This document shows positions 26,713 to 44,873 of a DNA stretch of 62,371 bases, piece by piece. A model generated the notes under the pieces. That model was not told where the DNA came from. It ran no database searches and worked only from the letters and a program-made list of their open reading frames with translations. This stretch comes from Bacteroidaceae bacterium (GTDB taxonomy: Bacteria; Bacteroidota; Bacteroidia; Bacteroidales; Bacteroidaceae). Every line of letters begins with the position of its first letter. Position 1 is the stretch's first letter. Both the position numbers and the translations under genes were made by a program. The DNA is taken from NCBI GenBank assembly GCA_017642425.1, contig JAGCPB010000006.1, positions 1 to 62,371 on the forward strand, written 5' to 3'.

Positions 26713-26744
26713 ATTCAAAGAATAATTACTCATGAACATTACTG

Positions 26745-26775
26745 CAAAAATAGCAATAATCGGGAAAGTTTCAAA
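26745..26775 (-). promoter_or_regulatory. Canonical promoter of the xylanase-pepD unit
   Basis: On the minus strand TTTG (26775-26772), exactly 19 nt, then TATTTTTG (26752-26745). This is the best Bacteroides-type promoter in the window, with a predicted start near 26738 and a leader of about 26 nt. It separates the xylanase and pepD from the transporter genes upstream, at least in part. Confidence 0.75.
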
Positions 26776-26804
26776 AAAAAGGGACACAGATAGAAGGTAT
26801 TGTA

Positions 26805-27521
26805 TTACCCCAGGAACTTACCCCTATTCTGAAGCCCCAGCAAGCCCGACATCAAGAAGACAATTGCGGCCACAATCATCATGATGCGGTTCTTTAGCAG
26901 GATTACGCTCCAGATGGCGGCGTTGATATTCTCGGGTTCCTCATAAGGATTTATCGTTACATCCCAGACCTTGTTCTCCACCAGCGGGAGATTACCCAAT
27001 ACCAGCGCAAGTATCACCGTGAGTACGGAGAGTACGGCTGCAGCGTTACCGTTGCGTATGAGCGTGGAGTACAGGAACGCCAGGTTTCCGAACAGTATTA
27101 CCGGGAGCATAAGGTTCAGCGCCATTGAGAAAGGCTGTACCGGATAGAGCAGGATTCTGGCCAGGAAGGCATAAACCACAAGTATGAGATACACCTCCAC
27201 ATATATCATCACCAGACGGAACAGCCAAACCTTGTACATGTAGTTGGGAATGCCGAACAGCAGCTCCAGGATGCGGTGGTCGGCATCATTCTGGATTCCG
27301 AAACATGACGGGTAGAATACAAGCAGGATACCGGGTATGATAAGCTGGCCGTAAACCATCTCATGACTCAACTCCGTACCTCTGGATGCGGCGGCAAACA
27401 TCAGGAAGAAGAACAGGGCCAGGCCCACCAGCAGGAACCATATGAACTTGCCGGAGAATATTATCCTCATATTGTAGCCGCACAACCGTGCGAATGATTT
27501 AAAAGTCTGTGTTACTGACAT
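26805..27521 (-). CDS. ABC-2 type permease, small
   Basis: A 238-residue membrane protein with six predicted helices (about 24-44, 57-76, 104-126, 132-150, 160-176 and 213-230) and the layout of ABC-2/NatB-type permeases. It has no ATPase domain. The gene follows the RND-ABC fusion by 15 bases, and the fusion carries an ATPase with no attached ABC-2 permease, so the two are likely partners. The substrate is unknown. A run of T follows the gene without a convincing hairpin before the xylanase promoter. Confidence 0.75.
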   Translation of the reverse strand: MSVTQTFKSFARLCGYNMRIIFSGKFIWFLLVGLALFFFLMFAAASRGTELSHEMVYGQLIIPGILLVFYPSCFGIQNDADHRILELLFGIPNYMYKVWLFRLVMIYVEVYLILVVYAFLARILLYPVQPFSMALNLMLPVILFGNLAFLYSTLIRNGNAAAVLSVLTVILALVLGNLPLVENKVWDVTINPYEEPENINAAIWSVILLKNRIMMIVAAIVFLMSGLLGLQNRGKFLG

Positions 27522-27536
27522 CGGGTCAACTTCATT

Positions 27537-30500
27537 TTAAAGGTTCTTTAATAGACACAGATATGCATCCTCAAGGTTGGGCTCAGCAAGCTCGGCATCG
27601 GGCCACGGGCATGTGGGCGATATATAACGCACCTTGATCTTGTCACCGTCCTGGATGTGGTTGGCAATGAGTTTCTCGTCAAGCTCACCCAGACGTGATG
27701 CCTCAATGTCAAACAGCCATACCTTGTCCTTGGCCAGCTTAACCATATCATTGGGCTCTCCAAAGTACTTGAGTGAACCTCTCTCTATCACCACAACCTG
27801 GTTGCACGAACTGGCTATATCCTCAATGATATGCGTTGAGAATATCACTATACGGTCACGGCTCAGTTCAACCAGTAGGTTACGGAAACGGATACGCTCA
27901 CGGGGGTCAAGACCTGCGGTAGGCTCATCGACCACAAGTATGCGCGGCAGGTTAAGCAGTATAAGCGCAATACCTATACGCTGTTTCATACCGCCAGAGA
28001 ACGATCCTATCTCAGCGTTGCGCTGCTCATACATGTGGACTGACTTGAGCACATAATCCAGTCTCTCATTGCGCACCTTCTCATCGGTAATACCCTTAAG
28101 GATAGCCTGATAATTAAGGAAATCCCATGCGCTCATGGACTCGTACATACCGAACTCCTGAGGCAGGAATCCGATAAGGCTCTGCAGCTCCTCCCTGTAC
28201 TTGAGGGTATCCATACCGTTGATGAACACCGTTCCGTAGCTCTGGCGCAATATACCGGTCACTATACGCATGAACGTGGACTTACCCGCTCCGTTGGGGC
28301 CCAGGAGTCCGAACATACCGCTGTGTATCTCGAACGATACGCCGCGCAATGCCTTGAACGGTTTCTTACGCTTGCCGATGATAGGAATACTCTTTACAAA
28401 AACAAACCATGCATGGCGCAGTTTGGCTGTCTCACCCTCCAGACGCTCCACGTTTATGTTGTTTTCATACAGGTATAACGATGTCTTGTTGATGCAGAGT
28501 CCAAGCAGCCAGACAATGGCAATGAACACCATGAATCCCTTGCTCTCTATGCGGGTATTCAGGAACATCATTGCACATATCGGCAGAGCCCAGTAGAGTA
28601 TCTTCCTTATGATTAAGACTGCTTTTGCCCCACTCTTGAACTTGTAAGCAATATACTCAAGTATTGCCTTCAGGATATTGTTTATGCCAGCCAGTGTAAT
28701 GATTGTCATAAGCAAGATCCATCCCTGCTTCTCAAAATACCATCCGGCCAGATAGGCTGTATAGCCGAACACCACCACCTGCCATATCAGGCTCACAAAA
28801 TCCTTTGCGTGATGGAAAGTGCGCGAAAGACCCAAACGGCGGCGAATATTCAGTCCGCTTCGCCACTGGCGCAGGAACAGGCTGTACCAGTCATACACCT
28901 TGACCAGGTTACGAACCTCAATCACAATAGGCTCGTCAGGGCTTACTATATCCTTGCGGGCAATCCTTACGGAGCTCTTTATGAAATAGGTCACTCCCGG
29001 AATCAAAACCGCCAGCACGATAATGTAAAGAAGCATCATGAATATTCCACGTACGCTTGACAGGATCACTGCCACACCAACAATAAACAATATCGCATGC
29101 AGGATATGGGTGTAACGGCCCAGTCCCTTGTACCATGCTCTCATATTCTCAAATGATATGTAGAGCGTAGGTATGAGCAGCAATGTAAGTATGGCCGAGA
29201 AGGTCAGACCGCCAATCACAGTCAGCGCGAACGGAGCACCTATGGCACCCGCATATTCATTGTCACCCATAGCCATGGGGATAAGCGTGACAATGGTAGT
29301 GATTGTGGTTATGCAGATAGGTCTCAGGCGGGAATATCCGCTGGTCATGATAGCCCTCATACGGCCGTATCCCCTGCGCCGCAGGGTCGATGAATAGTCA
29401 ATAAGTATGATACCATTGTTGACCACTATACCAAGCAGTATCAGGAATCCCGTCAGTGTATTGGCATTCATCAGGTTATTGCCCGACAGCAGCAGTGCCA
29501 GCAATGAGCCTATGGCTGCCAGCGGTATTGAAAACAGCAGCACCACAGGTGTGGTGAGTGACTCGAATGCCGATGCCAGTATCATGAATATGAGTATGAT
29601 CGATGCCAGTATCAGGAACTTGAACTCACTGGTGGAGTCATCACCGCGCTGCACCTCCAGTGCCAGTCCGGACGGAAGGTTGTAATTGGCAATGATATCA
29701 TCAATCTGGTCATGATAATCATCCAGCACATCCTTGGGCAGGTCCTCGCTCTGTGATATGGCGTAGGTCACGTTCACGCGGCGGTCGCGGTTTACACGAC
29801 GTACCTCGGACGGTCCACGGCTAAGGCGGATATTAGCCAGTTGCTGAAGCTCATGGACTCCGCCGTTGGCATCGGTCACGGTAAGGCGACGAAGGTCATC
29901 GAGTGTCTTTTCCCAAGCCCTCATCTCCTCCTCTTCCTCGGTAAGGTCATCCATTATGACAATGTCATATTCATCGGTACCCACCTTGAAGCTGGCTCCT
30001 GAATTTGTAGAGCGGTTCATTGAATTCAGGGCCGATGTTATGGCCTGGTTGGTGATATTGTACGATGCCATGGCCACAGGGTCAAAGGTGAGCTGCACCT
30101 CACGGCGGCCACCGGGATTGTCAACACGGACATCACGCACAAACTCCAACTGCTCCAGATAGTACCTTAGATTGTTGGATACTATGCGCATGGTCTCGGT
30201 ATCAGAACCCTTGACAACAATCCTCTCAGTATTGTCACCCACGCCCAGCACACTCATGAACCGTGTAAGAGAACTCAGGCCCGATGCGTTCTGGTTTCCG
30301 CGGGCATAACCCGGAGTCACGCGGACGTCAATCTCATTCTCAAGGGCAAGCTCATCACTGAGTTGTTCCACAAGCTGGCTTATGGTTGGACCTCCCTTCT
30401 TGTTATATCCTTCCTGGAGTGTTACGGTAATTGACGCCTGCTCCTCCTGAATACGGCTTATCACATCCTTCTTGAATGCCAGACTGTCCAGGCGTCCCTC

Positions 30501-32246
30501 GAGCGTAGCCGTTGCCTCGTCAGTATCATCAAGCGTGCTGCCTGTAGGCATGGTGATGTTCACATTGATCCTGTCACTCTCAACCTGACGGTTCTGACCG
30601 GTGTTACGGGACAGGGCGAATATGAATGCTATCACCAGAACGGCCACCGCCGTACCAACAGTAGGTCCGGGCTTGCGCAGACAGGTCTTGAGCAGTGTTG
30701 AATACATCTGCAGCGGGCGGTCATGGATGGACATCTTCTTGAAAAAGACACTGTTGGCACCGCCTCCGCGCTCCATCATGGCAGCCGTTGCCATAGGGAT
30801 GAACGTGACAGCTACCAGAAGTGAGAATACCAGCGTGGATATAATTGAAAATCCAATATTACGGCCCAGAAGCTTTATCATAGGCTCATCCGAGAACACG
30901 AACGGCAGGAACACCGTTATGGTGGTAAGCGTGGATGCTATAAGGGCCTTGCGCACCTCCTTTACGCCCTGCAGGGCCGCCAATCGCGGCGGCATGCCCA
31001 TCGAAGCCAGACGGTAAATGTTTTCAAGCACCACTATACTGCTGTCCAGCAACATACCTATGGCCAACGCCATACCTATAAGGGTAAGGGTGTTGATGGA
31101 TATATCGGCAGCGTAGAATATGTTGAACGCAGACAGGATGGATACGGGAATAGAGAGCGCGATAAAGAACACAAGACTTATGTTGCGCAGGAAGAACCAC
31201 AGAACCAGTACAGCCAGAATACCGCCAATCAAGGCCAGTCTGACTATCTGTGATATGTTGTTGCTTATCTGGTCGGCCGAATTTGACTGCACTACAAGCT
31301 GAAGGTCCTGGGCGGCAACCTCACGGTTCACTTCATCAATACGCTTCAGGGTTCTCTTGGAGAGGTCAAGCAGGTTCTCACCGGCACCGTTTACCAATGA
31401 AACCGATATGGCATCCATTCCGTTCACACGGCTGATGGTGGTCTCCTCCTTGTAGTCAAAGAAAACTGTGGCAACGTTTTTAAGATAGACCGGTCCGTTG
31501 GCAACCACCAGATTCTCCACCTGCGACACGTCATCATAGTTTGCATCCAGCTGCACGTAGTACTTCTTGTCGGGCTCACTTATAAAGCCCAGGAATGTAC
31601 GCTCCTGATTATACTGGCTCAATGCTTGGCTTATCTGTGAGTTGGATATGTGCAAAGCCTGCATGGCCTCCGGATTAGAGCGTATCTCGATTGACTTGAC
31701 ACGGCCTCCGTACACAGTGACTCCTGCTATGCCGTCTATGCTCTCCAGACGCGGCACCACATCCTTGTCCACGATGGCTCTCAAGCGGTCAACACCGCCC
31801 GATCCGCGCACCTGCAATGACATGAACTGGTTGCTTATGCCGTTTATGTTGGCCTGCTGGACATTGACAGAGACATCGGTCGGGAAATCACCCCGGATGG
31901 AACTGATCTTCTCCTGCAGCTTGACCGTGGTCATCTTAAGGTTGGTGCCTCTCTTGAAGTCAACCCTTATGGAGCCCTGTCTTCCGGACACAGTAGATTC
32001 CATGTTTTCCACGCCACCGACTGCGCTTATGGCTCCCTCAAGCGGTATAACCACCTGCTGCTCCATGTAAGCCGGAGTAAGGTCACTCCGTGACGACGCA
32101 TTTATATACAGCTGGGGCAGTTCCGTATTGGGCAACAGCTCAACCGGCAACTGTTTATATGAGAAATAGCCCAGCAGCGTCAACGCCACCAGAAGCATGC
32201 TTATTGTTACCCTGCGGTCAATAAATGACTTGGATTTTACACTCAT
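27537..32246 (-). CDS. RND efflux pump fused to an ABC ATPase
   Basis: A 1569-residue fusion. Residues 1-1044 form a full HAE-type RND pump. It starts MSVKSKSFIDRRVTISML, TM4 has GMLLDSSIVVLENI, and TM10 has LGIVVNNGIILID, with two periplasmic porter regions between. Residues 1047-1092 hold two extra hydrophobic helices. The strand IEVRNLVKVY (1109-1118) looks like the first strand of an ABC nucleotide-binding domain. About 180 residues with four more hydrophobic segments (near 1149-1171, 1175-1195, 1210-1229, 1236-1252) follow, and then the rest of the ATPase: FKALRGVSFEI, Walker A GPNGAGKST (1316-1324), signature FSGGM (about 1417), Walker B VVDEP and switch His in STHI. All ATPase motifs are intact. 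It overlaps the preceding RND gene by four bases. The fusion is read directly; the mechanism is unknown. Confidence 0.93.
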   Translation of the reverse strand: MSVKSKSFIDRRVTISMLLVALTLLGYFSYKQLPVELLPNTELPQLYINASSRSDLTPAYMEQQVVIPLEGAISAVGGVENMESTVSGRQGSIRVDFKRGTNLKMTTVKLQEKISSIRGDFPTDVSVNVQQANINGISNQFMSLQVRGSGGVDRLRAIVDKDVVPRLESIDGIAGVTVYGGRVKSIEIRSNPEAMQALHISNSQISQALSQYNQERTFLGFISEPDKKYYVQLDANYDDVSQVENLVVANGPVYLKNVATVFFDYKEETTISRVNGMDAISVSLVNGAGENLLDLSKRTLKRIDEVNREVAAQDLQLVVQSNSADQISNNISQIVRLALIGGILAVLVLWFFLRNISLVFFIALSIPVSILSAFNIFYAADISINTLTLIGMALAIGMLLDSSIVVLENIYRLASMGMPPRLAALQGVKEVRKALIASTLTTITVFLPFVFSDEPMIKLLGRNIGFSIISTLVFSLLVAVTFIPMATAAMMERGGGANSVFFKKMSIHDRPLQMYSTLLKTCLRKPGPTVGTAVAVLVIAFIFALSRNTGQNRQVESDRINVNITMPTGSTLDDTDEATATLEGRLDSLAFKKDVISRIQEEQASITVTLQEGYNKKGGPTISQLVEQLSDELALENEIDVRVTPGYARGNQNASGLSSLTRFMSVLGVGDNTERIVVKGSDTETMRIVSNNLRYYLEQLEFVRDVRVDNPGGRREVQLTFDPVAMASYNITNQAITSALNSMNRSTNSGASFKVGTDEYDIVIMDDLTEEEEEMRAWEKTLDDLRRLTVTDANGGVHELQQLANIRLSRGPSEVRRVNRDRRVNVTYAISQSEDLPKDVLDDYHDQIDDIIANYNLPSGLALEVQRGDDSTSEFKFLILASIILIFMILASAFESLTTPVVLLFSIPLAAIGSLLALLLSGNNLMNANTLTGFLILLGIVVNNGIILIDYSSTLRRRGYGRMRAIMTSGYSRLRPICITTITTIVTLIPMAMGDNEYAGAIGAPFALTVIGGLTFSAILTLLLIPTLYISFENMRAWYKGLGRYTHILHAILFIVGVAVILSSVRGIFMMLLYIIVLAVLIPGVTYFIKSSVRIARKDIVSPDEPIVIEVRNLVKVYDWYSLFLRQWRSGLNIRRRLGLSRTFHHAKDFVSLIWQVVVFGYTAYLAGWYFEKQGWILLMTIITLAGINNILKAILEYIAYKFKSGAKAVLIIRKILYWALPICAMMFLNTRIESKGFMVFIAIVWLLGLCINKTSLYLYENNINVERLEGETAKLRHAWFVFVKSIPIIGKRKKPFKALRGVSFEIHSGMFGLLGPNGAGKSTFMRIVTGILRQSYGTVFINGMDTLKYREELQSLIGFLPQEFGMYESMSAWDFLNYQAILKGITDEKVRNERLDYVLKSVHMYEQRNAEIGSFSGGMKQRIGIALILLNLPRILVVDEPTAGLDPRERIRFRNLLVELSRDRIVIFSTHIIEDIASSCNQVVVIERGSLKYFGEPNDMVKLAKDKVWLFDIEASRLGELDEKLIANHIQDGDKIKVRYISPTCPWPDAELAEPNLEDAYLCLLKNL

Positions 32247-35200
32247 TTTCCGGTGATTCTTATTTTGGCGCTTTCAAACACATAATAAACACACGGTATC
32301 ACCACAAGACTGAGCAGGGTTGAAGTGACCAGACCGCCTATCACGGCAATTGCCATGGGCGAACTCAGTGATGCCCCCTCTCCTATTCCCAATGCCATAG
32401 GCACAAGTGCCAGGATTGTGGTAAGACTGGTCATAAGAATGGGTCGGATACGCTGTTGGCCTGCCTCTGCAATTGCGTCGGTAAGGCTCAGGCCTGATTC
32501 CTTGAGCTGTCCTATGCGGTCCACCAGAATGATGGAGTTGTTGACCGCTATACCGGCCAGCATCACCATACCTATGATACCCATTATATTGACCGTAATG
32601 CCTGTTGCAAGGAACATCAGCACAGCTCCTACCAGAGCCAGAGGAATGGTCAGCAAGATGGTGAACGGATGCAGCAGTGATTCAAACTGCGATGCCATGA
32701 CCATATAGACCAGCACGATTGACAGCAGCAGTGCCAGCAGCAGACTGTTCATGGATTCGGCACGGCGCTCCTCCTCGCCGGTTACGGTTATGGAGTAGTT
32801 CTGCGGCAGCTCAATGCCAGAGACTGCATCCCTAACCCTCTGCGCGGCCTTATCCAGCGATGTAGACTCGTCTATATCGGCAGTGACGCGGGTCACGCGG
32901 TTCTGATTGAGACGGTAAATCTCCTTGGGAGCGGTACTCTCGCTTATCTGAGCCAGTTCTATAAGGCGGAAATCCTTCTGGCCCGATGTTATTACCATAG
33001 TGTTCAGATCAGACAATGACACTCCCGGAACCTTGATGCTGATATCTCTCATATCGCCCTTATAGTCCATCTGTCCGGCTTCACGTCCGGCCAGGTGCTG
33101 CTGTATCTGGGTGATTATGGTGGATACGTTTATGTTGTTCATACCGGCCAGGGCGCGGTCAACGGTAATGATGATCTCCGGAGCACCGCCGGCCAGCGAA
33201 CTCTCTACATTGTACAGGCAGTCAATGGAATCAACAGCGGCTTTAACCTGATCCGTAAGTGCGGCCAGAAGGTCCAGGTCCTCACCCTTTATCTCCACAA
33301 CCAGCGGAGCATCCTCGGTTCCCATCATGGAGTTCAGGGAGTTTTCATCCTGGGTGAATGAGAGTTCCATACCCTCAACACCGTCAATATAAGCCGACAG
33401 GACCTCGGTAAGGTAATCAGGGGTAACTGCCGATGCCTTGGAGAGCTGGATCTTCAGGGTAGCCGTATTCTCTCCCTCAAAGTCCAGGTTCTGGGCTGAT
33501 GCACCCGGGCCCACATGAGTGTAGATGACGCATTCGGGATCCTCGGCCAGGTCATACACCAGATTCTCAAGACTCTCAAGCGTGGATGAAGTACGCTCCA
33601 GACTGGTGCCTTCGGCCATACGGACCTTTACGTTGATAGTATTGGCATCGGTCTTAGGCATAAACTCCGTACCCACATACGGCAGCAGGAACACAGTACC
33701 GGCTACCAGGATAACGGACAACAGGATTACCAGCCAGCGCCAACCTACCAGTTTCTTAAGGAATGAGCTGTAGCCCTTAATATTAACTGAACTGAAGTTC
33801 TTGAGAGGTACTGCTTTCTTGCGTGAGAAAATGCGCTCATACAGTGTAGGTATGACCAGTATAGCCACAAAAAGTGATGACAACAGTGAGAACGTTACCG
33901 TCCATGCCTCATCCTTGAAAAGTTCGCCTGTAGCGCCGTGCAGATATACAATAGGCAGGAACACCACGATTGTGGTTAGAGTTGAAGCCGATACGGCACC
34001 GCCCACCTCGGACGTTCCGGTAATGGCGGCATCTCGCACGGAGAGGCCCCGCTCCTGATTCCTGAATATGCTCTCAATAACCACAATGGCATTATCCACC
34101 AGCATACCCGCACCCAACGCAAGTCCTCCAAGCGTAAGTATGTTAATTGTCAACCCGCTGAAGAACATAAGGTTGAAAGTGGCGATAATGGAAACCGGTA
34201 TTGATACGGCCACGATAAGGGTGGTCCCCAACCTGCGCAGGAACACGAACAGTACTATCACAGCCAGCAATACGCCCAGCAGTGCACTGTTCTTGACCTC
34301 GCCTATGGAGTTGTTTATGAAAGTTGCCTGGTCACTTATAACGATAAACTCATATCCCGGCAATGATTTCCTGATTTTTTCCAGGCTTGTCTTTATTCCC
34401 TCAACCGCCTTGACGGTGTTGTAGTCCATCTCCTTGAATACCGATATACCTATGCTGCGGTTGCCGTTCACCCTTACTATGTTCTCAGGGTCACGGTTCT
34501 CAAAGTGGATGGTAGCCACGTCACGCAGGTATATCGGTGCCATGCTGGCCGATTCAAACTCGCCCAGACGCGTTCCCTGCTGCGTAGCTTCGGTGTTTTT
34601 GTATCCAACGATGATATTGCCGAATGCCATCTCATCAGTAAGCGTATTGGATCCGGTTACAAGATACTGGAAACCCTGTTCCGATATCCTTCCGCCCGAT
34701 ACCCTCTGGTTGCTCTCCTGAATACGTGATGAAATGTTGTCTACGGTTATCCCGAAAGCCTGCAGCTTATAGGGATCGGCTTCAATTACCAGATTGGTGA
34801 ACTCATCTCCTGCAAGAGAGACATCGGCCACGCCCTCAACCCTCATAAGTTCATTGCACACGTATGAGTCTGCCACCTTGCGCAGCTCGGCCATGTCTGT
34901 GATATCAGGATTTGAGAAACCCACTATCATTATAGGGGCTGTGGTGGGGTCTTTCTGTGATATCCTAAGGTCCGTTACGCGGCTGTCCTGAGAGAAACTG
35001 CTCATAGCCTTCTCCAGGTCCAGGAACGCCTCGTCCATATTCTTGCGCCATGCATACTCAACGGTAATACGGGCTGTTCCCACCTTTACCACCGATGACA
35101 CATTGCGCACGTCACTCTGACGGGCAATCTGAGACTCCATGCTGCGCACGAACTGTTTCTCAATCTCTTCTGGCGGACGCTCGCCAGCATCTATCTCGAC

Positions 35201-35341
35201 AAACAGGCGGGGGCTGTTCATGCTTGGAAGCAACTCCACGCTCAGCCTGTCATATGATATTTTTCCTAGCAGCAGGATAGCCAGCACCGCCATCGTGACA
35301 GTGACCGGATTCCTGACCGCCCAACTTACAAGTTTCTTCAT
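32243..35341 (-). CDS. RND efflux transporter, first subunit
   Basis: A 1032-residue inner-membrane RND pump of the AcrB/MdtB-like class with 12 helices and two large periplasmic loops. It begins MKKLVSWAVRNPVTVTMAVL. TM4 contains GAGMLVDNAIVVIES, with a single Asp at the proton-relay position, and TM10 contains AGIAVNNSIILVD. It would export a substrate through the TolC channel using proton flow. A second, different RND gene follows with a four-base overlap while only one fusion protein and one TolC are present, so a mixed trimer as in MdtBC is plausible. The start at 35341 is the family N-terminus; an upstream frame extension overlaps the adaptor gene. Confidence 0.95.
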   Translation of the reverse strand: MKKLVSWAVRNPVTVTMAVLAILLLGKISYDRLSVELLPSMNSPRLFVEIDAGERPPEEIEKQFVRSMESQIARQSDVRNVSSVVKVGTARITVEYAWRKNMDEAFLDLEKAMSSFSQDSRVTDLRISQKDPTTAPIMIVGFSNPDITDMAELRKVADSYVCNELMRVEGVADVSLAGDEFTNLVIEADPYKLQAFGITVDNISSRIQESNQRVSGGRISEQGFQYLVTGSNTLTDEMAFGNIIVGYKNTEATQQGTRLGEFESASMAPIYLRDVATIHFENRDPENIVRVNGNRSIGISVFKEMDYNTVKAVEGIKTSLEKIRKSLPGYEFIVISDQATFINNSIGEVKNSALLGVLLAVIVLFVFLRRLGTTLIVAVSIPVSIIATFNLMFFSGLTINILTLGGLALGAGMLVDNAIVVIESIFRNQERGLSVRDAAITGTSEVGGAVSASTLTTIVVFLPIVYLHGATGELFKDEAWTVTFSLLSSLFVAILVIPTLYERIFSRKKAVPLKNFSSVNIKGYSSFLKKLVGWRWLVILLSVILVAGTVFLLPYVGTEFMPKTDANTINVKVRMAEGTSLERTSSTLESLENLVYDLAEDPECVIYTHVGPGASAQNLDFEGENTATLKIQLSKASAVTPDYLTEVLSAYIDGVEGMELSFTQDENSLNSMMGTEDAPLVVEIKGEDLDLLAALTDQVKAAVDSIDCLYNVESSLAGGAPEIIITVDRALAGMNNINVSTIITQIQQHLAGREAGQMDYKGDMRDISIKVPGVSLSDLNTMVITSGQKDFRLIELAQISESTAPKEIYRLNQNRVTRVTADIDESTSLDKAAQRVRDAVSGIELPQNYSITVTGEEERRAESMNSLLLALLLSIVLVYMVMASQFESLLHPFTILLTIPLALVGAVLMFLATGITVNIMGIIGMVMLAGIAVNNSIILVDRIGQLKESGLSLTDAIAEAGQQRIRPILMTSLTTILALVPMALGIGEGASLSSPMAIAVIGGLVTSTLLSLVVIPCVYYVFESAKIRITGK

Positions 35342-35348
35342 CTTTGCC

Positions 35349-36419
35349 TTATCTCTGGATCTTAACCTTTGAACCATCTCTCAAGGTCTCAAAACCACGT
35401 ATTATCAGCTGATCGTCCTTATCCAGGCCGCCCAGCACCTCAACCTGGTTCTTCTCTTCAAGACCCAGCCTGATCTGCTTTGCCCTGGCAATACCCTGAT
35501 CTACCACGAACACGATACGCCTGTTGCGCTCGTTACGTACAATATTCTTGGGTATCACAATCGTTGAACTGTGACTCTCGGTAACGATATCAGCCTTCAC
35601 GAACATACCCGGCCTTATGAGCAGCTGCTTGTTGTCAATCACAAGCTTGCCCTTGAATGTACGTGTCTCGGCGCTGATGGCGGGAGAGAGTTCGGTAACC
35701 TCGCCTATGATCGTGTCACCGGGAAGGGTGTAATGGGTGATGTAAGCCTTCTGGCCCACCTTGACCTCATTAATGGCACTCTCGGGCAGGTTGATCTCAA
35801 GCAGCATGGAGCTGTAGTCCATGATGGTAACAACCGATGTACCGCTGTTTACCTTTGCCTCGGTCGAAAAATGCGGAAGATTCACTATAACGCCGTCAAA
35901 CGGGGCACGGATGTTCATCTTCTCCAGATTCATCTGGGCATTCTCATAATCCAGACGGGAACTCATTATCTTGATATCCGAGTTCTTGACCTCCGTCAGA
36001 GTGGCACCTCCCTTTTCATAGAGTGATTTTGTCTTGGTCTGCTCCTGCTCGGCAAGTTCCAGGTTAAGACGCTTGGTCTCTATCGAGATGCCGTTCTCAT
36101 AAGACTTGTCCTCGATGCGTACTATAAGTGCGCCTTTCTTTACCTTGTCACCAAGTTTGTAGGGTTTTCCCGTTGCGGGATTTTTCTGAAGATGATACTT
36201 GCCGGCCATTTCAGTTGACAACTCTGCCTCGGCATTAGATACAGCCGTGCTGTTTGTCGTGAAAATCCTGCTTACAGAACCATAAGTGATGTCAGTGACA
36301 GATACCGGAGTAGGAATCTCATTACGGTTCATAGTGTTCTCTTGCCTGCACCCTACTGCAAGGAGTGAAAGCACAGCCAGTGTAAGTGCGCTGAATCCTG
36401 ATTTCATATACTGTTTCAT
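35349..36419 (-). CDS. Membrane-fusion lipoprotein (RND adaptor)
   Basis: A 356-residue periplasmic adaptor of the HlyD/AcrA family. A lipoprotein signal ends LLAVGC (Cys24), so it is lipid-anchored. A lipoyl/barrel-sandwich half (KLGDKVKKGALIVRIED and MNIRAPFDGVIVNLP) flanks a coiled-coil hairpin (about 115-165), and beta-barrel and membrane-proximal domains follow. It bridges the RND pump and the TolC channel. The start at 36419 (MKQYMKSGFS) is used because it gives a proper lipoprotein signal. It follows tolC by 4 bases and precedes the RND gene by 7. Confidence 0.92.
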   Translation of the reverse strand: MKQYMKSGFSALTLAVLSLLAVGCRQENTMNRNEIPTPVSVTDITYGSVSRIFTTNSTAVSNAEAELSTEMAGKYHLQKNPATGKPYKLGDKVKKGALIVRIEDKSYENGISIETKRLNLELAEQEQTKTKSLYEKGGATLTEVKNSDIKIMSSRLDYENAQMNLEKMNIRAPFDGVIVNLPHFSTEAKVNSGTSVVTIMDYSSMLLEINLPESAINEVKVGQKAYITHYTLPGDTIIGEVTELSPAISAETRTFKGKLVIDNKQLLIRPGMFVKADIVTESHSSTIVIPKNIVRNERNRRIVFVVDQGIARAKQIRLGLEEKNQVEVLGGLDKDDQLIIRGFETLRDGSKVKIQR

Positions 36420-36423
36420 TTTA

Positions 36424-37929
36424 TTATTTCTTCTTTTTGTCGGTACTCTCTTCATATGTGATGGGAACCACAGGTTCGTCTTTCTCAAAGTCATACAGGG
36501 TCAGGATCTTGATGTTAAGAAGCTGGACCTTGTAGTTAATGATGGCCTGTGTGTATGACATCTTGCTGTTTGACAGCTGGTTCTGGAACTGATTCATCTG
36601 CAGACCGGTCAGCTCACCGTTGCGGTAACGCTCCTCGTTCAGGTCATAGGTAAGCTGGGCGTTTCGCTGGCTCTGCTCGGCAATCGATATCTGTCCCACC
36701 AGATTGTCCAGACTGCGGCAGGTGCTGCGCACGTTCATCTCTATGCTCTTAAGCTCCTCCTCAGCGCTCAGCTCAAACATCTTGCGCTCAATCTCGGCAG
36801 CCTTGATCCTGGCTTTCCTGGCACCCCAGTCAAAGATAGGCACGCTGAATGATATGGCCACACGCGGGTTGTTGGTGGGATTGTCATATATGTGCGGGAA
36901 TTCCGGGTCATCGCCCATGACACCCAGCGAGAGTGAGATATTACCGCTAAAACTGTCATTGTCCTTGACCTGTATCATAGACATCTCCTGCTGCTCGCGT
37001 GAAATCTGGCGCTGGCGCAGTTCAAGCCTAGTGGTCATGGCGCTGTTAAGGGCCTTGTCATAATCCACATATACCGGTTCAGCCTCAATATCGCAAACCA
37101 CCATAATATCCTCTTCAAGAGGTATGCCCAGAGCCTGCTTGAAATTGTCCTTGGCATTCTCAAGGCTTACTCTCTGGTTCTCCAGACTTGAACGAGACTG
37201 GGCCAGGTTGAGTTCTGCCTGATAGTATTCATCTTTTGTAGTAAGGTCTGCCTCTACCTTATCCTTTATTATATTGAAGTTACGCTCGGCATTCTCCAAC
37301 TCAGACTCACTTATGGCAAGGTTCTGCTGTGACATGAACAGGCTGTAGAACTGGCTGGTAATGTTGCGCTCCACGTTGAGCAACTGGAGTGCATAGCTGA
37401 TACGTGCATTCTCATAGTTCATCTCAATCTGGCGCATGTTCATCTTGGTCCTGTTATATGTAAACAGAGGCTGGTTCAGGCTCAGGTAGAGACTGTTGCT
37501 GAAAGCACGGTTGCTGTTGGTGGTACCTCCTATTGATGACTCATTGTTCTGCCATGACAGGCTGTTGTTGAGTGACAGCGTGGCATCGGTCCAGATGATA
37601 GGCTGTGATATGCTGAACGTACCCGATGATGACAGCGAACGGTTTGTGTACCAGTCAGAATAACGGCTGTCAAACTGACGGGACTGTGAGTATGAAATGG
37701 GCTGCAGGTTGAGTGAGAACCTTGATTTCAGCGATGCCCTCTGGGCTATCAGGTTCTGCTCATACCTCTCCATACTCATACGGGAGTTTATCAGATCGGG
37801 GTTATGCTCGGCACTGTATTCAAGAGCCTGCTCCATGGTCAGGACAATCTGCGCACTGGCTCCGGTCTCAAATACCGGTGCTGCTACAAGCGCCATGACC
37901 GCCGTAATAAATAGTTTCTGCTTTATCAT
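36424..37929 (-). CDS. TolC-family outer-membrane channel
   Basis: A 501-residue outer-membrane efflux protein with a signal peptide (1-27, ending ASAQ). It has two repeats of the OEP fold: long alternating helices (for example LTMEQALEYSAEHNPDLINSRM at the start and the Glu/Gln/Leu-rich coiled segments), with beta-strand inserts such as SRFSLNLQPISYS. It forms the exit duct of tripartite pumps. It lies between the ABC permease gene and the adaptor gene (17 and 4 bases), so one channel may serve both the RND and ABC components of the cluster. That sharing is inference. Confidence 0.93.
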   Translation of the reverse strand: MIKQKLFITAVMALVAAPVFETGASAQIVLTMEQALEYSAEHNPDLINSRMSMERYEQNLIAQRASLKSRFSLNLQPISYSQSRQFDSRYSDWYTNRSLSSSGTFSISQPIIWTDATLSLNNSLSWQNNESSIGGTTNSNRAFSNSLYLSLNQPLFTYNRTKMNMRQIEMNYENARISYALQLLNVERNITSQFYSLFMSQQNLAISESELENAERNFNIIKDKVEADLTTKDEYYQAELNLAQSRSSLENQRVSLENAKDNFKQALGIPLEEDIMVVCDIEAEPVYVDYDKALNSAMTTRLELRQRQISREQQEMSMIQVKDNDSFSGNISLSLGVMGDDPEFPHIYDNPTNNPRVAISFSVPIFDWGARKARIKAAEIERKMFELSAEEELKSIEMNVRSTCRSLDNLVGQISIAEQSQRNAQLTYDLNEERYRNGELTGLQMNQFQNQLSNSKMSYTQAIINYKVQLLNIKILTLYDFEKDEPVVPITYEESTDKKKK

Positions 37930-40900: not shown

Positions 40901-41342
40901 ACCACAGATAACTCAGATAGTCCAAGGCAAAGCCAAACTTGATAAGACTCATTATCAACGCTATCATCGCCACTGCAAAATCAAGTATAAAGAACACCTT
41001 AAGAGTGGCCCACATCTTACCTATAAGATACTCAGCATTACTCAGCGGACGGGTATAGAACACCTCGGATGTATCAAGTTGCTTGTCTCGCTTAAGATAT
41101 TCCGATGCCAGGAAAACCGACACAACGGCCTGCCCCACATTCATTATCAGCAGGAACATATAGGGAATGACCGAGCGGTTCACCACCTCGGGTTGCGGAA
41201 ACTGCGTAAGGATATATATCGCTCCCAGTATAATTGCAGTAAAAACAGCCAGGAAGGCAAAGACCTTGAAAAACCAGCCTCTGACAAGCAGCTTTGTCTC
41301 ATACTTGGAGACAATCAGTATGTTAGTTATTCCAAGTCCCAT
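37947..41342 (-). CDS. ABC-2 permease with a giant extracytoplasmic domain
   Basis: A 1131-residue protein. About seven hydrophobic helices occupy residues 20-275 (ABC-2 permease layout), and roughly 850 residues of soluble region follow. That region resembles the ectodomain of the ABC permease/M1-aminopeptidase-like proteins of Bacteroidota. No HExxH zinc motif exists anywhere, so peptidase activity is unlikely. Near residues 1045-1070 is an Asn-rich tract. The last 140 residues (VYDVYYYAAPN, GWNLLGTFRF, ADAVRLVK) resemble golvesin/xanthan-lyase-type ligand-binding modules. It overlaps its ATPase gene (TGATG); the start at ATG 41342 is preferred to the GTG one codon upstream. It probably acts with the ATPase at 41342-42223. 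The substrate is unknown. Confidence 0.8.
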   Translation of the reverse strand: MGLGITNILIVSKYETKLLVRGWFFKVFAFLAVFTAIILGAIYILTQFPQPEVVNRSVIPYMFLLIMNVGQAVVSVFLASEYLKRDKQLDTSEVFYTRPLSNAEYLIGKMWATLKVFFILDFAVAMIALIMSLIKFGFALDYLSYLWYFLLLSVPTLVFIVGLSTTLMLILNNQAITMVILLAYIGVTLFYIDNLYYYLFDYIGFNLPMLKSVVTGFSGLSRLINHRMCYLLLGIGLILTDVSLFHRLANSRYSLLPWRIAAAVFLAGGLYAGYRHVHMYKVDEKYRADMVELDNKYVHIGGAVARSCELTVTQSGDSLSVRADMTVSPKEDASQLVFTLNPGFRINSITAPGHSMKYERLMHLIILTFDATLPEDEPLNLIMEYGGMADERICYLDISAEKLIENVKALSRLNVGKRYLFQDREYTMLTPESYWYPRPGVAYSDQSPEWQMSYFTDFTVNVTPNPGLKPISQGLCTANEDSTSYSFKPESSLPSISLLIGDYNPKSITVDSTLYTVWELGHWDDQFEVFDSIRDTVPYIIRDRRRNMEYQADMAYPFKRFQIVEVPVQFTSYKRVWTSAYEQLQPEMALVHERGFDMREFQFRNMKRSWTGRNNWNRRNNNMSEKEILVNILINSINFMMQSGNMSGSSRNGQWTMTQVDNPYFYRPLFYNFRYNVYSSDWPMANRMVESMTAENNARNNNWMRRMNGLSEDEKALILMGKYDFDRIMSDPEWEDLADNALELKTKDFFAPVSVAVGYESLVDSLSAKTRERAFANVSFDSILDWVQSYSGISLEDKIEAWNGTAQLACYKIGTPQITTVTTDTADIYQAEVTFENISDNPGFVNVEFVFYETENAGDEDKPTSMMVSVGPHETRRIVTHWFNIPSYIRVNTMLSSNLPHEINLNNTDWSTFEGTELTAEGVYNVRGGVDNTLPGEIIVDNEDSNLFSLSRPLRTGYLSKWIDKAKEKKNEFMYEGFSDWRTYSQWTLVTDQNLYGDYIRSAYLISPGDGGQYARWSIPLEVAGVYDVYYYAAPNMYENNNRNRRWNNNNNNNWNNNNNNGRRVTNDYNFEIGQFNTSDHVSMNMWRAEEGWNLLGTFRFEADTVRVTLNNRSGIRIIVADAVRLVKRER
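38161..38226. repeat. Asn-codon microsatellite in the permease gene
   Basis: Repeated GTT/ATT units (AAC/AAT codons on the minus strand) encode two runs of Asn, WNNNNNNNW and NNNNNN, in the C-terminal region of the large ABC permease. Such runs are prone to length change by slippage, always in steps of one residue. Confidence 0.7.
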
Positions 41343-42223
41343 CACTCCTTATCCCTAATCTCCGTAAAATAAACATATGCATGCTCCAGGTTTGGAGGAT
41401 AACTCACTGCATCATAACCGGGAGATTCCTTTGAAACCACCTGCAGATCCCATCCAAGACCATGCGGTATGGTTGATATCACAGCGTACTTCTGGTTTAT
41501 CTCGGCGTACTGCTCATTGGTAACCTTAAGGCGCCATACCTTGCCCTCTGTCTCCTTGAGCATCCCAGCCGGCGACCCACGGAACAGGACCTGCCCCTGA
41601 TTGAGCATTGCCATTTCCGTACATGAACTTGATATGTCACCTACGATATGTGTTGACAGTATGATTGTGGTATCCTTTGAACTGGCCTCGCTCAACAGGT
41701 TACGGAACCTGATGCGCTCCTCGGGGTCAAGTCCGGTGGTAGGCTCATCCACCACAAGCACCTGAGGCTTGTGAATCAGTGCCTGGGCTATACCCAGACG
41801 CCTTTTCATACCGCCAGACAGATTCTGCGCATATCGGTCACGGGCCTCATAAAGACCCACCTGCTCAAGCATCTCGTCAACCGCCTTGCCGCGCTGGGAC
41901 GAATTGGTCATACCCGAAAGCGCCGCCGCATATTCCAGAAACTCACGGACCTTATACTTGGCAAAGAAGCGGAAATCCTGTGGCAGATAGCCCAAAATGC
42001 GCCGAACCTCCTTGCGTTGCGTACGGATATCGTAACCGCACACGTCTATCTGGCCCTCGGTAGGTTCCATAAGGGTTACCAGGATGCGCATCAGGGTGGA
42101 TTTTCCGGCACCGTTGGGCCCCAAAAGGCCGAACATACCTGAAGGAATCTCCAGATTGATATCGGTAAGTGCTCTCTTACCGTTAGGATAATAATGACTT
42201 AAGCCTTTTATACTTATTGACAT
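41342..42223 (-). CDS. ABC transporter ATPase
   Basis: A 293-residue ATPase of the CcmA/NatA type. Walker A is GPNGAGKST, the Q-loop is YLPQDFRFF, the signature is LSGGM, Walker B is VLVVDEPTTGLDPEERIRF, and the switch His is in STHIV. A C-terminal extension ending in PNLEHAYVYFTEI closely parallels the end of the ATPase in the RND fusion (PNLEDAYLCLLKN), so the two ATPases look like paralogues. The start at 42223 (MSISIKGLSHYYPNG) is the family start; the longer frame overlaps the GH9 gene. It pairs with the giant permease by one-base overlap and follows the GH9 gene by 7 bases. Confidence 0.93.
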   Translation of the reverse strand: MSISIKGLSHYYPNGKRALTDINLEIPSGMFGLLGPNGAGKSTLMRILVTLMEPTEGQIDVCGYDIRTQRKEVRRILGYLPQDFRFFAKYKVREFLEYAAALSGMTNSSQRGKAVDEMLEQVGLYEARDRYAQNLSGGMKRRLGIAQALIHKPQVLVVDEPTTGLDPEERIRFRNLLSEASSKDTTIILSTHIVGDISSSCTEMAMLNQGQVLFRGSPAGMLKETEGKVWRLKVTNEQYAEINQKYAVISTIPHGLGWDLQVVSKESPGYDAVSYPPNLEHAYVYFTEIRDKE

Positions 42224-42230
42224 GTATTCA

Positions 42231-44873
42231 TCATTTGTTGATTGCAGCTGCAATCTCCTCGGCACCTATAGATAATGTAACGTATGACGGAACTGTACGT
42301 GTGCAGCACTCATTCTCACCCCACAGGAACGGATAGTCATCCTTGTGCTCCAGGAAATCAGGCTGCAAAAGCACCAGACCGGGAGCTATTCCGCCGGGAA
42401 TAAAGGTATGGTCTGCACGGTTGTTGCCGTATGCCACCTTCTTGGTGTTGACACCCACCGCTGTCACGAACGAAACGTTTGAGTAGGGATGGTTACCGTA
42501 TATGAAGTTAAGGCCGGACAATACCAGCTCGGGATCAATCAGGTCTGGATAATAGCGCCATACCATGTAATTGTTCTGGGCCCAGCTGATTACACGCTCG
42601 CTTCCACCCCATGAACCACCTGCTACGGGAACGCCGTAAGGAGTGGATTCGGCCGTGCGCTTGGCATCCTCAACGAATACGGGAATAACCTCACGCAGCT
42701 GTGCCTTGAAGTCATCATCCATGTACGGAAGCAGTGAAAGGGCTGTGGTGATGTTCACGCGCGGTGCACGCATTGCACTGCCGCCACCGGTACGGTTATC
42801 CTCAACTCCCTGAGGAGCTGTACGGGCCGCCTCAATCTGACGCATCACACCGGGCAGGAACATATCCTTGTATTTCTGCTCACCGGTAAGGAGCCACAGC
42901 TGTATGGCGGCACTTGAACGGTCACCGCCCATATTGCGGTTGTTTCTCATATTCGCATTGGCATTGGTGTTGGACTGCTGGTTACGTGCGGGCTGACGGG
43001 CCTGGAAGTCATCCATCTCCTTCCATAACTTAAGGGCATTCTTCTTGCAACGCTCGGCAGTTTCAGGAATATACGGGGCAAGTACGCGTGCTGCGTGTGC
43101 CAATGCGGCGCAAACATTCACGTTGCCCATTGGATTGCCGTTGTTGTTGGTGAAAGCAAAACGGTCATCAAGCGTTCCCGAACGGTTGCCGCGAACCTCG
43201 TAAGGTTTCAGGCTGGGATCATAGATATATCCGTCAGTGATTGTAACTGCATCACCCAGATGATGATACTGATGCATGTTTCCTTGAACAATACCACCGG
43301 CAATAAAGCCTATGTTCTCAATCTGTGCACACAGGTTCAGAGCACCGTGTTCCACCTGCTGAATCACATCAGGCAGACCGTCGGGACGGTGTATGTCAAC
43401 AAACTGAGTCTTCTGGTCAATGAATGTCTCATCACGCTCGGGACGCAGCACATCCCACACCTCGGCCAGCTGGTTGGTAAGGCCGATAACCGTACCTGAC
43501 TGGATGTCAAAGTCACCGGCATCATACCATGCGCCTACTGCCAGACCCGGAATATGCTCGTATGGCTTGTACTTGGTATTGGTGGTGTTGCCCATGCGGT
43601 AGCCGTCATGCTGCTGATAATTGAGGGGAGCCTGGATGGCATCGTCCATATGTGAGCGGCCGTGCCATACACGGTAAGCCTCATTCACAAGCATATGGTC
43701 CATCTGAACGGGCAGCCACACATCCATGGTGTTGTGCCACTTGCCCTCATATACATTCTTGTTGATGGGGAACGGATTGCTCTTTACACCTTTATACTCT
43801 ATATAATATGTACCCGGCTCCTTAACGTCACTGAAATCGCACTGGGCATAGTTGTAACGGTTATAGAATACGCCCCACTCCTTTACGGCAGGTTCAAGTG
43901 CCAGAGTATGGCTTCCGTCGGCATTGATACGGAATATCTTAGCCTTCTGTGCCACCTTGTCATTACGGTCCAGTTCTATAACTGCCACCTTCTTCTGGGC
44001 GGGAGTGTAGCCAATCTGTGAAAAACCTATGTTGGGTTCACGTATCCATCCGGCCTCGGCAGTAGGCTCCACATACCACTCCAGCACCGTTCCGGTCTTT
44101 CCCTGCGGCAGGAATGAACGCACCACGAACGTACCGTTCTGTGACAGGTTACGGCCGTCATACAGGTTCAGTTCGGTATCTGACTTGAACAGTACACGAA
44201 GGTCATCATCCTCGGGGGCCACTACAAGGGTATGTCCCTTTGAGATGGGCTTTGCAACAATGAATTCGCCGCGTCCGCGGTCATCGAAAGTGGTCTGGCC
44301 CCAGAACTGGGTTATCTTCTCATCCACCGGACGCATCTCGGTGTCACTTGACGGATAACGGGGGAATATCTCAGACTGCCCGTCCATGAGATATGTCTTG
44401 CCAAAGTAGGTGGCCGGGAAGAACTCCATGTTGAGACCCGCCTTGCCTGCAAGGGCAGCCGGCAGAGGCTCATCCAGAATGACGGAAATCCGGACTCCCT
44501 GACCCTCCTGTTTTGCGGTAATTCCGTATCTGAAATTATAGTCAGGATAATTGAACCTACAACTTATCACTCCACCCAGGGTATCGATTGTACGCTCGGT
44601 AAGCGTGGCATAGATATCCCACTGCTCGGGCGTGTTCATAAGACGTACGGCTCCACCGGTTGCAATACGGACTCCGCGTTGCACGATTTCTATACCGGCA
44701 GTCTTCTCGTCACAGAAAACACCCTGATAATTGTTGGAGTAAACCAAAACGTTAACACCACGGGTCTCGAAATAGCCCCGTTCATTGATCTCTAACTTAC
44801 CTGTTTCCAATGACTTGGAGCAGGAAACAAACATGCACAGCAATGTGGCAACAATTGGGAGTAATCGTTTCAT
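42231..44873 (-). CDS. GH9 glycoside hydrolase, lipoprotein
   Basis: An 880-residue exported enzyme. A lipoprotein signal ends MFVSC (Cys18). Residues 25-275 are a beta-rich N-terminal region of unknown family. A CelD-type Ig-like domain (about 282-370, IGFSQIGYTPAQ) precedes the GH9 catalytic barrel. That barrel has Asp451 and Asp454 in GAWYDAGDFD, the conserved FIYGNHPYSNVSFV, and a C-terminal acid Glu in WGENE (853-855). GH9 enzymes are mostly endoglucanases, though some in Bacteroidota act on other beta-glucans. It is the first gene of the transporter operon, 7 bases before the ABC ATPase, with its own promoter box. The lipid anchor suggests surface or periplasmic placement. Confidence 0.92.
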   Translation of the reverse strand: MKRLLPIVATLLCMFVSCSKSLETGKLEINERGYFETRGVNVLVYSNNYQGVFCDEKTAGIEIVQRGVRIATGGAVRLMNTPEQWDIYATLTERTIDTLGGVISCRFNYPDYNFRYGITAKQEGQGVRISVILDEPLPAALAGKAGLNMEFFPATYFGKTYLMDGQSEIFPRYPSSDTEMRPVDEKITQFWGQTTFDDRGRGEFIVAKPISKGHTLVVAPEDDDLRVLFKSDTELNLYDGRNLSQNGTFVVRSFLPQGKTGTVLEWYVEPTAEAGWIREPNIGFSQIGYTPAQKKVAVIELDRNDKVAQKAKIFRINADGSHTLALEPAVKEWGVFYNRYNYAQCDFSDVKEPGTYYIEYKGVKSNPFPINKNVYEGKWHNTMDVWLPVQMDHMLVNEAYRVWHGRSHMDDAIQAPLNYQQHDGYRMGNTTNTKYKPYEHIPGLAVGAWYDAGDFDIQSGTVIGLTNQLAEVWDVLRPERDETFIDQKTQFVDIHRPDGLPDVIQQVEHGALNLCAQIENIGFIAGGIVQGNMHQYHHLGDAVTITDGYIYDPSLKPYEVRGNRSGTLDDRFAFTNNNGNPMGNVNVCAALAHAARVLAPYIPETAERCKKNALKLWKEMDDFQARQPARNQQSNTNANANMRNNRNMGGDRSSAAIQLWLLTGEQKYKDMFLPGVMRQIEAARTAPQGVEDNRTGGGSAMRAPRVNITTALSLLPYMDDDFKAQLREVIPVFVEDAKRTAESTPYGVPVAGGSWGGSERVISWAQNNYMVWRYYPDLIDPELVLSGLNFIYGNHPYSNVSFVTAVGVNTKKVAYGNNRADHTFIPGGIAPGLVLLQPDFLEHKDDYPFLWGENECCTRTVPSYVTLSIGAEEIAAAINK

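Follow-up and report, generated by a model that had tools for sequence, protein, structure and literature searches.

Gene content of the locus

The window, which is the whole stretch of DNA that was analysed, comprises positions 1-62,371 of contig JAGCPB010000006.1 of Bacteroidaceae bacterium GCA_017642425.1. The minus strand encodes a cassette of seven genes in the order ABC ATPase, ABC-2/M1 permease, TolC, adaptor, RND transporter, RND-ABC fusion and small permease. RND pumps and ABC pumps are regarded as two superfamilies, each with an energy source of its own. The sixth gene of the cassette (P0001, 27537..32246, ATG at 32246 and stop at 27537) encodes parts of both in a single chain of 1569 amino acids, as judged from the ORF listing and Pfam.

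The first gene of the cassette encodes a separate ABC ATPase (P0005, 307 aa, 41342..42265), identified by BLASTP and alignment, that is 42% identical to the nucleotide-binding domain (NBD) of the fusion over 268 residues. Its catalytic motif residues are invariant in 21 of 21 cassettes, except for S/T and V/I changes. Next is a large ABC-2 permease with an M1-peptidase-like periplasmic domain (P0004, 37947..41345), recognized using hhalign: the 21 cassette copies match six stand-alone ABC-2/M1 proteins with a probability of 99.6% (E 4.8e-25). The HExxH zinc motif is found in none of the 21 cassette copies vs. all six stand-alone relatives. With HExxH lost, the M1 domain is probably a pseudo-peptidase retained within an exporter.

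Also present are a TolC-type outer membrane factor (36424..37929, Pfam OEP), a periplasmic adaptor, or membrane fusion protein (35349..36494, HlyD_D23, with RND_mfp over its cut-off), and a second RND transporter, here termed the partner RND (P0007, 1044 aa, 32243..35377, from the ORF listing and Pfam). The partner RND gene shares four bases with the 5' end of the fusion gene, and 15 bases separate the fusion stop from the start of a small permease (P0002, 238 aa, 26805..27521). The small permease models with an ABC-2 (type V) fold; thus, an ABC-2 transmembrane domain is encoded beside the fusion NBD. When the small permease was compared with the transmembrane part of the large one, no homology was detected (hhalign 0.1%). 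Five further members of the cassette lay beyond the view of the preliminary description of this DNA: the second RND, ATPase and permease, the adaptor and TolC.

Domain architecture of the fusion protein

The fusion frame runs for 1569 codons from its ATG with zero interruptions. Pfam assigns ACR_tran, at full length, to residues 6-1032 (E 3.4e-164) and ABC_tran to residues 1300-1444 (E 7e-25). Both the unbroken frame and the complete RND transporter, which the preliminary description had placed at residues 1-1044, are therefore borne out. The RND part (residues 1-1040, 29127..32246) has MdtB as its closest solved relative, this being the best match to the fusion by E-value among the best 60 of 491 matches to solved chains. 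Among those 60, no chain joins RND and ABC; the matches fall on separate entries. None of the best 25 of 191 NCBIfam models reaches its cut-off for the fusion. The top RND subfamily model among these 25 is RND_permease_2, with 474.6 bits vs. a cut-off of 1250. The model for the gliding ABC ATPase GldA (TIGR03522) also stays below its cut-off, with 173.8 bits vs. 402.6.

Past the twelfth transmembrane helix of the RND part are two extra transmembrane helices (residues 1044-1093, 28968..29117), placed at 1044-1064 and 1068-1093 in an AlphaFold model. Hydropathy averaged over 71 aligned full-length fusions agrees. These 71 sequences are the fusion of the window and those of 70 of 80 loci with a complete frame of more than 1480 aa; the other ten loci are cut by contig ends or broken. 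The 80 loci were gathered using the patterns RNLVK[VI]YD and N[NDH]INVERL, so the conservation of these two motifs in the set is partly built in.

The predicted start of the NBD, consisting of the first strand and the A-loop (IEVRNLVKVY, residues 1109-1118, 28893..28922), lies well before the remainder of that domain. A BLASTP alignment of the fusion with the separate ATPase begins only at residue 1298 and skips this strand; because BLASTP is blind to it, a profile was built from separate ATPases (30 training sequences, one dropped with no aromatic residue at the tested offsets). The strand ranks first of approximately 1560 windows in 21 of 21 fusions. In the AlphaFold model (pTM 0.55), residues 1109-1116 form a strand. 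All 50 listed structural alignments of the model, whose matches stem from the NBD part rather than the insert, begin at model residue 64-69 (equivalent to 1104-1109), and 47 of these 50 begin at residue -1 to 5 of the solved NBD. The A-loop tyrosine, Y1118, is kept in 21 of 21 fusions, as is the equivalent residue in the separate ATPase (21 of 21). A chance likeness is rejected by the profile ranking and the structural alignment and, as judged by sequence and model, the strand is part of the fusion NBD, as had been suspected from its letters.

The rest of the NBD (residues 1298-1569, 27540..28355), identified by Pfam, alignment and BLASTP, carries Walker A at 1316-1324 (with the lysine at K1322), a Q-loop (LPQEF, 1361), the signature FSGGM (1416), Walker B (VVDEP, 1438) and an H-loop (STHI, 1470). 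These motifs are invariant in 71 of 71 fusions, with V/I at one Walker B position as the sole exception, in agreement with the earlier view of a motif-intact ATPase. One alternative is that the NBD senses ATP or regulates assembly for the RND pump and does not power transport. The covalent attachment of the NBD to an otherwise full-length RND protein would suit such a role. We consider it very unlikely, given that the NBD has preserved its catalytic motifs, with the Walker B glutamate present in 71 of 71 sequences, and is accompanied by dedicated ABC-2 permeases.

A first tree of the ATPases, with six long-branched outgroups, suggested that the fusion NBD and the separate ATPase are sisters. 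Once seven stand-alone ATPases were added, the trees no longer discriminated between the possible branching orders of the three groups: the best tree pairs the fusion NBD with the stand-alone ATPases (support 93/89), and forcing the fusion NBD to join the separate ATPase costs 1.67 log units (AU p 0.31).

A membrane insert within the NBD

Between the first strand and the rest of the NBD is an insert of about 179 residues (1119-1297, 28356..28892) with very basic flanks. The preliminary description had reported four hydrophobic segments in about 180 residues here. These reappear in the hydropathy averaged over 71 sequences and as four helices in the AlphaFold model, at 1147-1170, 1174-1202, 1206-1232 and 1236-1261. 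The NBD is thus interrupted by a membrane insert, which departs from the contiguity expected of an ABC ATPase. Across the 71 sequences, Walker A follows the first strand at a distance of 192-201 residues. Pfam gives no significant match for the insert, and homology to either cassette permease was not found (hhalign probability about 1% or less).

The mean net charge is +5.2 before helix 1 and +8.0 after helix 4; loops 1, 2 and 3 average approximately 0, +3.1 and +0.7, respectively. Given these basic flanks, the positive-inside rule predicts that both ends of the insert are in the cytoplasm. Two relatives (L170 and L171) have a natural deletion of the first helix pair; two helices remain, and this even number supports the cytoplasmic placement of the ends. 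The proposal that an even number of inserted helices would keep the ATPase on the cytoplasmic side agrees with this prediction.

A few other relatives (L172 and L173) have long low-complexity spacers between the first strand and helix 1. Such spacers might be taken as a sign of post-translational cleavage that would release the RND protein from an ABC subunit. They sit within the NBD and not between RND and NBD, and the stretch from the RND part to the first strand aligns almost gap-free in 12 sequences, so we regard cleavage as highly improbable.

Recurrence of the fusion across genomes

The C-terminal 527 residues of the fusion have counterparts in 26 of 37 genomes of the genus (that of the window included), with 81-100% identity. 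The region that bears the insert occurs in 34 of 399 genomes of the family, 52 of 393 of the order and six of 395 drawn from the phylum, four of these six being outside the order. Recurrence, one of the checks that the preliminary description had called for, is thus found well beyond the source genome, and the structure prediction it also asked for gave the strand described above. A pattern scan of contigs returned 224 matches, of which 152 encode a relative. Carriers among the best 80 of these 152, which were kept, include Bacteroides faecis MAJ27, B. bouchesdurhonensis, Parabacteroides gordonii and P. goldsteinii, as well as bins of Rikenellaceae, Tannerella and Prolixibacteraceae. Full-length fusion frames are present in B. 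faecis MAJ27 and P. gordonii. The source genome is fragmented (114 contigs, 87% complete), and an assembly or frame artefact might be suspected for this reason. The recurrence of this frame in 26 of 37 genomes of the genus and, at full length, in named strains rules out an artefact, the chance of which we put at practically nil. The patchy distribution resembles that of an accessory system.

The cassette around the fusion is conserved. All seven genes are present and collinear at 20 of 20 loci chosen for contig room (18 were found by profile, two by protein search and none by the exact patterns). A further 12 of 12 stretches, three of them from genomes also in the 20-locus set, have the order TolC, adaptor, RND, fusion and permease. 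With contig room allowed for, the neighbours of 70 full-length fusions include an RND gene in 65 of 69 cases (within 1.2 kb before the fusion), an adaptor in 62 of 65, TolC in 62 of 65 and the small permease in 63 of 64.

Four loci are scattered. Three of these (L129, L130 and L133) keep the small permease with foreign genes upstream of the fusion, so that fusion and small permease are together in three of four; at the fourth (L110) the fusion adjoins no cassette gene. Elsewhere in these genomes, a cassette-type RND (60-61% identity) was found in two of four and a cassette-type ATPase (67-69%) in three of four, so that all four, which are bins of unstated completeness, have one or both. The displaced RND adjoins an adaptor in two of two cases, and the displaced ATPase adjoins its permease in three of three. 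The pieces seen in these genomes therefore support a shared function and the pairings of the components. A fifth locus (L128) was left out of this group; there the fusion lies close to the start of its contig, and the cassette may be unbroken. That genome encodes an RND (59%) and an adaptor on another contig, which ends inside the RND gene.

At three loci (L078, L105 and L117) the fusion, and in some also other cassette genes, is broken into several frames. The L078 genome has a second fusion copy (L054), uninterrupted as far as the contig reaches.

In the window, genes for glycoside hydrolases flank the cassette. One encoding a GH10 xylanase with CBM6 and CBM35 (24067-26787) starts 17 bases past the small permease, and one for a GH9 enzyme (42231-44873) is just upstream of the ATPase. 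GH9 is also found at two loci of the same genus (L198 and L199) and was not seen at the 18 other loci of the 20. Among those 18, a GH10-like frame occurs only at L197, on the other strand. These hydrolases are not conserved neighbours. Pfam searches of seven neighbours upstream of the ATPase at seven loci returned unrelated families, and so no conserved regulator or substrate gene was identified there.

Constant fusion and an altered proton relay

We found no unfused close relative of the fusion RND part among 33 matching genomes of 247: frames uncut by contig ends are 1536-1640 aa long, and the NBD is joined to the RND part in every such copy. Short RND frames in four genomes (G416, G587, G413 and G538) run off contig ends. 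For two others (G489 and G424), the remainder of the fusion is on another contig of the same genome.

Other long RND frames in the order, of approximately 1450-1560 aa (L331, L274 and L291-L295), are a different kind of RND fusion. The frame at L331:3671-8335 has a C-terminal TolC-type (OEP) domain according to Pfam. In L274 and L291-L295, BLAST similarity to the OEP protein of the window is weak or absent, and no P-loop was seen.

The fusion is 29% identical to the partner RND. The proton relay of AcrB involves D407, D408 and K940; the equivalent positions were placed by alignment. In the fusion, only the first aspartate, in TM4, is kept (D401, 71 of 71). The D408 position is N in 47 and S in 24 of 71 sequences, with one C among the 21 cassette fusions; all 71 carry N at the K940 position. 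The partner RND also keeps the TM4 aspartate (D428, 21 of 21); its D408 position is N in all 21 copies, and its K940 position is N in 20 copies and S in one. Two other RND proteins of the same genome retain D-D and K, and 22 of the 24 nearest non-cassette relatives of the partner RND in the order retain D-D with K or R. Among the control RND proteins that score best with Pfam, 22 of 30 have D-D with K or R, and eight of 30 have D-G with L or Q; the latter is presumably the HME type, from which the fusion also differs. One sequence, L325, was left out of these comparisons as a duplicate of another.

This pattern raises the possibility of an RND protein re-powered by ATP, in which dimerisation of and hydrolysis by the NBD would drive or gate the RND cycle, replacing or backing proton flow, and the small permease would be an accessory partner of the NBD. 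Such driving or gating would fit the relay residues, altered in both cassette RND proteins and retained in most controls, and the attachment of the NBD in every copy uncut by a contig end. The D-N/N-N pattern also occurs in two of the 24 nearest RND proteins (L304 and L309), which belong to ordinary three-gene pumps with no cassette ABC gene nearby; the altered relay alone is therefore no proof that ATP drives the pump. The invariant TM4 aspartate of both subunits argues that the site is still used, and the two ABC-2 permeases of the cassette point to ABC transport proper. We judge this explanation unlikely.

A second explanation treats the RND pair solely as a scaffold and periplasmic conduit, with the ABC module as the only motor, in the manner of MacAB-TolC or LptB2FG-type export. 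This too would account for the altered relay in both RND subunits, and the cassette provides two motif-intact NBDs and two ABC-2 permeases for it. A pure scaffold should drift at the TM4 aspartate and across the ACR_tran domain, yet the aspartate and the full-length domain are conserved. We rate it as quite unlikely, and below ATP driving of the RND itself.

Proposed function

The reading that we favour, and hold to be somewhat more probable than all others taken together, is that the seven-gene cassette produces a hybrid ABC/RND tripartite exporter with the fusion as its central subunit. The cassette, with its conserved content and order, intact motifs in both NBDs, one NBD split by an even number of helices, and two distinct RND subunits alongside a single adaptor and a single TolC, would supply the needs of both an ABC-2 exporter with two NBDs and two permeases and a tripartite pump with a hetero-RND, one chain being shared by the two. 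The substrate, stoichiometry and coupling of this exporter are inferred, and each NBD is paired with a permease on the basis of gene order. The presence of a fusion with no adjoining cassette genes at L110, the two permeases that lack detectable homology to each other, and the best tree, in which the fusion NBD and the separate ATPase are not sisters, count against it.

In the proposed mechanism, the two RND subunits may form a heterotrimer, by analogy with MdtBC, docked on the adaptor and TolC. The fusion NBD would close around its own membrane insert, which would anchor it beneath the inner membrane, and would work with the adjoining small permease, while the separate ATPase would work with the dead-peptidase permease. 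Together, these could constitute an ABC-2 (type V) module of two NBDs and two transmembrane domains that spends ATP to extract or flip an amphiphilic substrate out of the inner membrane. The substrate would be handed to the RND porter domains, then pass out via the adaptor and TolC. The covalent link would hold motor and pump in one complex, and the two extra helices may relay movement of the NBD to the RND bundle. With ATP driving the first step and an RND protein carrying out the second, the scheme would resemble the handling of proteins by SecA and SecDF. We consider it most economical to suppose that the RND porter domains receive a membrane or amphiphilic substrate from an ATP-dependent lifting step, with export following through the adaptor and TolC.

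The preliminary description had offered two readings: one protein that couples or gates two energy sources, or an RND scaffold for an ABC exporter formed with the small permease. These are partly supported: the exporter with the small permease survives within the hybrid exporter that we favour, and coupling or gating would fit the altered relay and the constant fusion.

More speculatively, the fusion may represent a new class of bacterial exporter, an RND pump with an integral ABC motor, where an NBD threaded by its own membrane block lets ATP hydrolysis pull directly on the membrane bundle. A two-RND pump that has lost most of its proton relay would then be driven or gated by ATP, making one transporter with two motors. 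We put this forward tentatively, as doubtful but somewhat more likely than ATP driving of the RND by itself. If coupling were proven, the system would be categorically new, beyond known tripartite exporters. The conserved RND-ABC cassette permits a direct test of whether ATP hydrolysis can drive or gate an RND pump; named strains of Bacteroides and Parabacteroides carry it, so that deletion and further study are feasible. The fusion also shows that an NBD can accommodate a membrane domain between strands one and two, which constrains models of NBD folding and docking.

Comparison with known systems

Each part of the fusion belongs to a known superfamily; the combination is apparently undescribed in Pfam, NCBIfam, solved chains and the literature searched. 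No RND-ABC fusion was found in the titles and abstract openings searched, a body of text in which subscription papers and preprints are thinly covered, or in the passages of PMC8277102 that were searched.

MdtABC-type pumps resemble the cassette in that two different RND genes follow each other and are accompanied by a single adaptor and a single TolC, and MdtB is the top-scoring solved chain for the fusion among the best 60 of 491 matches. MdtBC is named as a rare heterotrimer in PMC8277102. Unlike these pumps, the cassette has an NBD on one RND protein, an ABC ATPase, two ABC-2 permeases and changed proton-relay residues. MacAB-TolC is likewise built from an ATP-driven inner-membrane transporter, an adaptor and TolC. 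The fold of MacB is of another type than ABC-2, whereas the small permease of the cassette models as ABC-2 and RND proteins are present.

The nearest non-cassette relatives of the separate ATPase (39-43% identity) are in stand-alone two-gene systems of ABC-2 and M1 aminopeptidase (L250-L254 and L256), which also include the relatives of the large permease (hhalign 99.6%). In contrast to these, the cassette copy is without HExxH and sits with RND, adaptor and TolC genes. Type V/ABC-2 exporters such as NosDFY, PmtCD, ABCA and ABCG differ from the cassette, where an NBD is fused to an RND protein and split by a membrane insert. The regulatory insertion in NBD1 of CFTR is in about the same place as the insert in the fusion, after the A-loop and before Walker A; it is short and soluble, whereas the insert in the fusion consists of membrane helices.

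SecA is not an ABC ATPase. The SecA/SecDF system is similar to the cassette in that an ATPase step is aided by a proton-driven protein of the RND superfamily, as described in PMC8277102. It differs in that, in the fusion, motor and RND protein are one chain.
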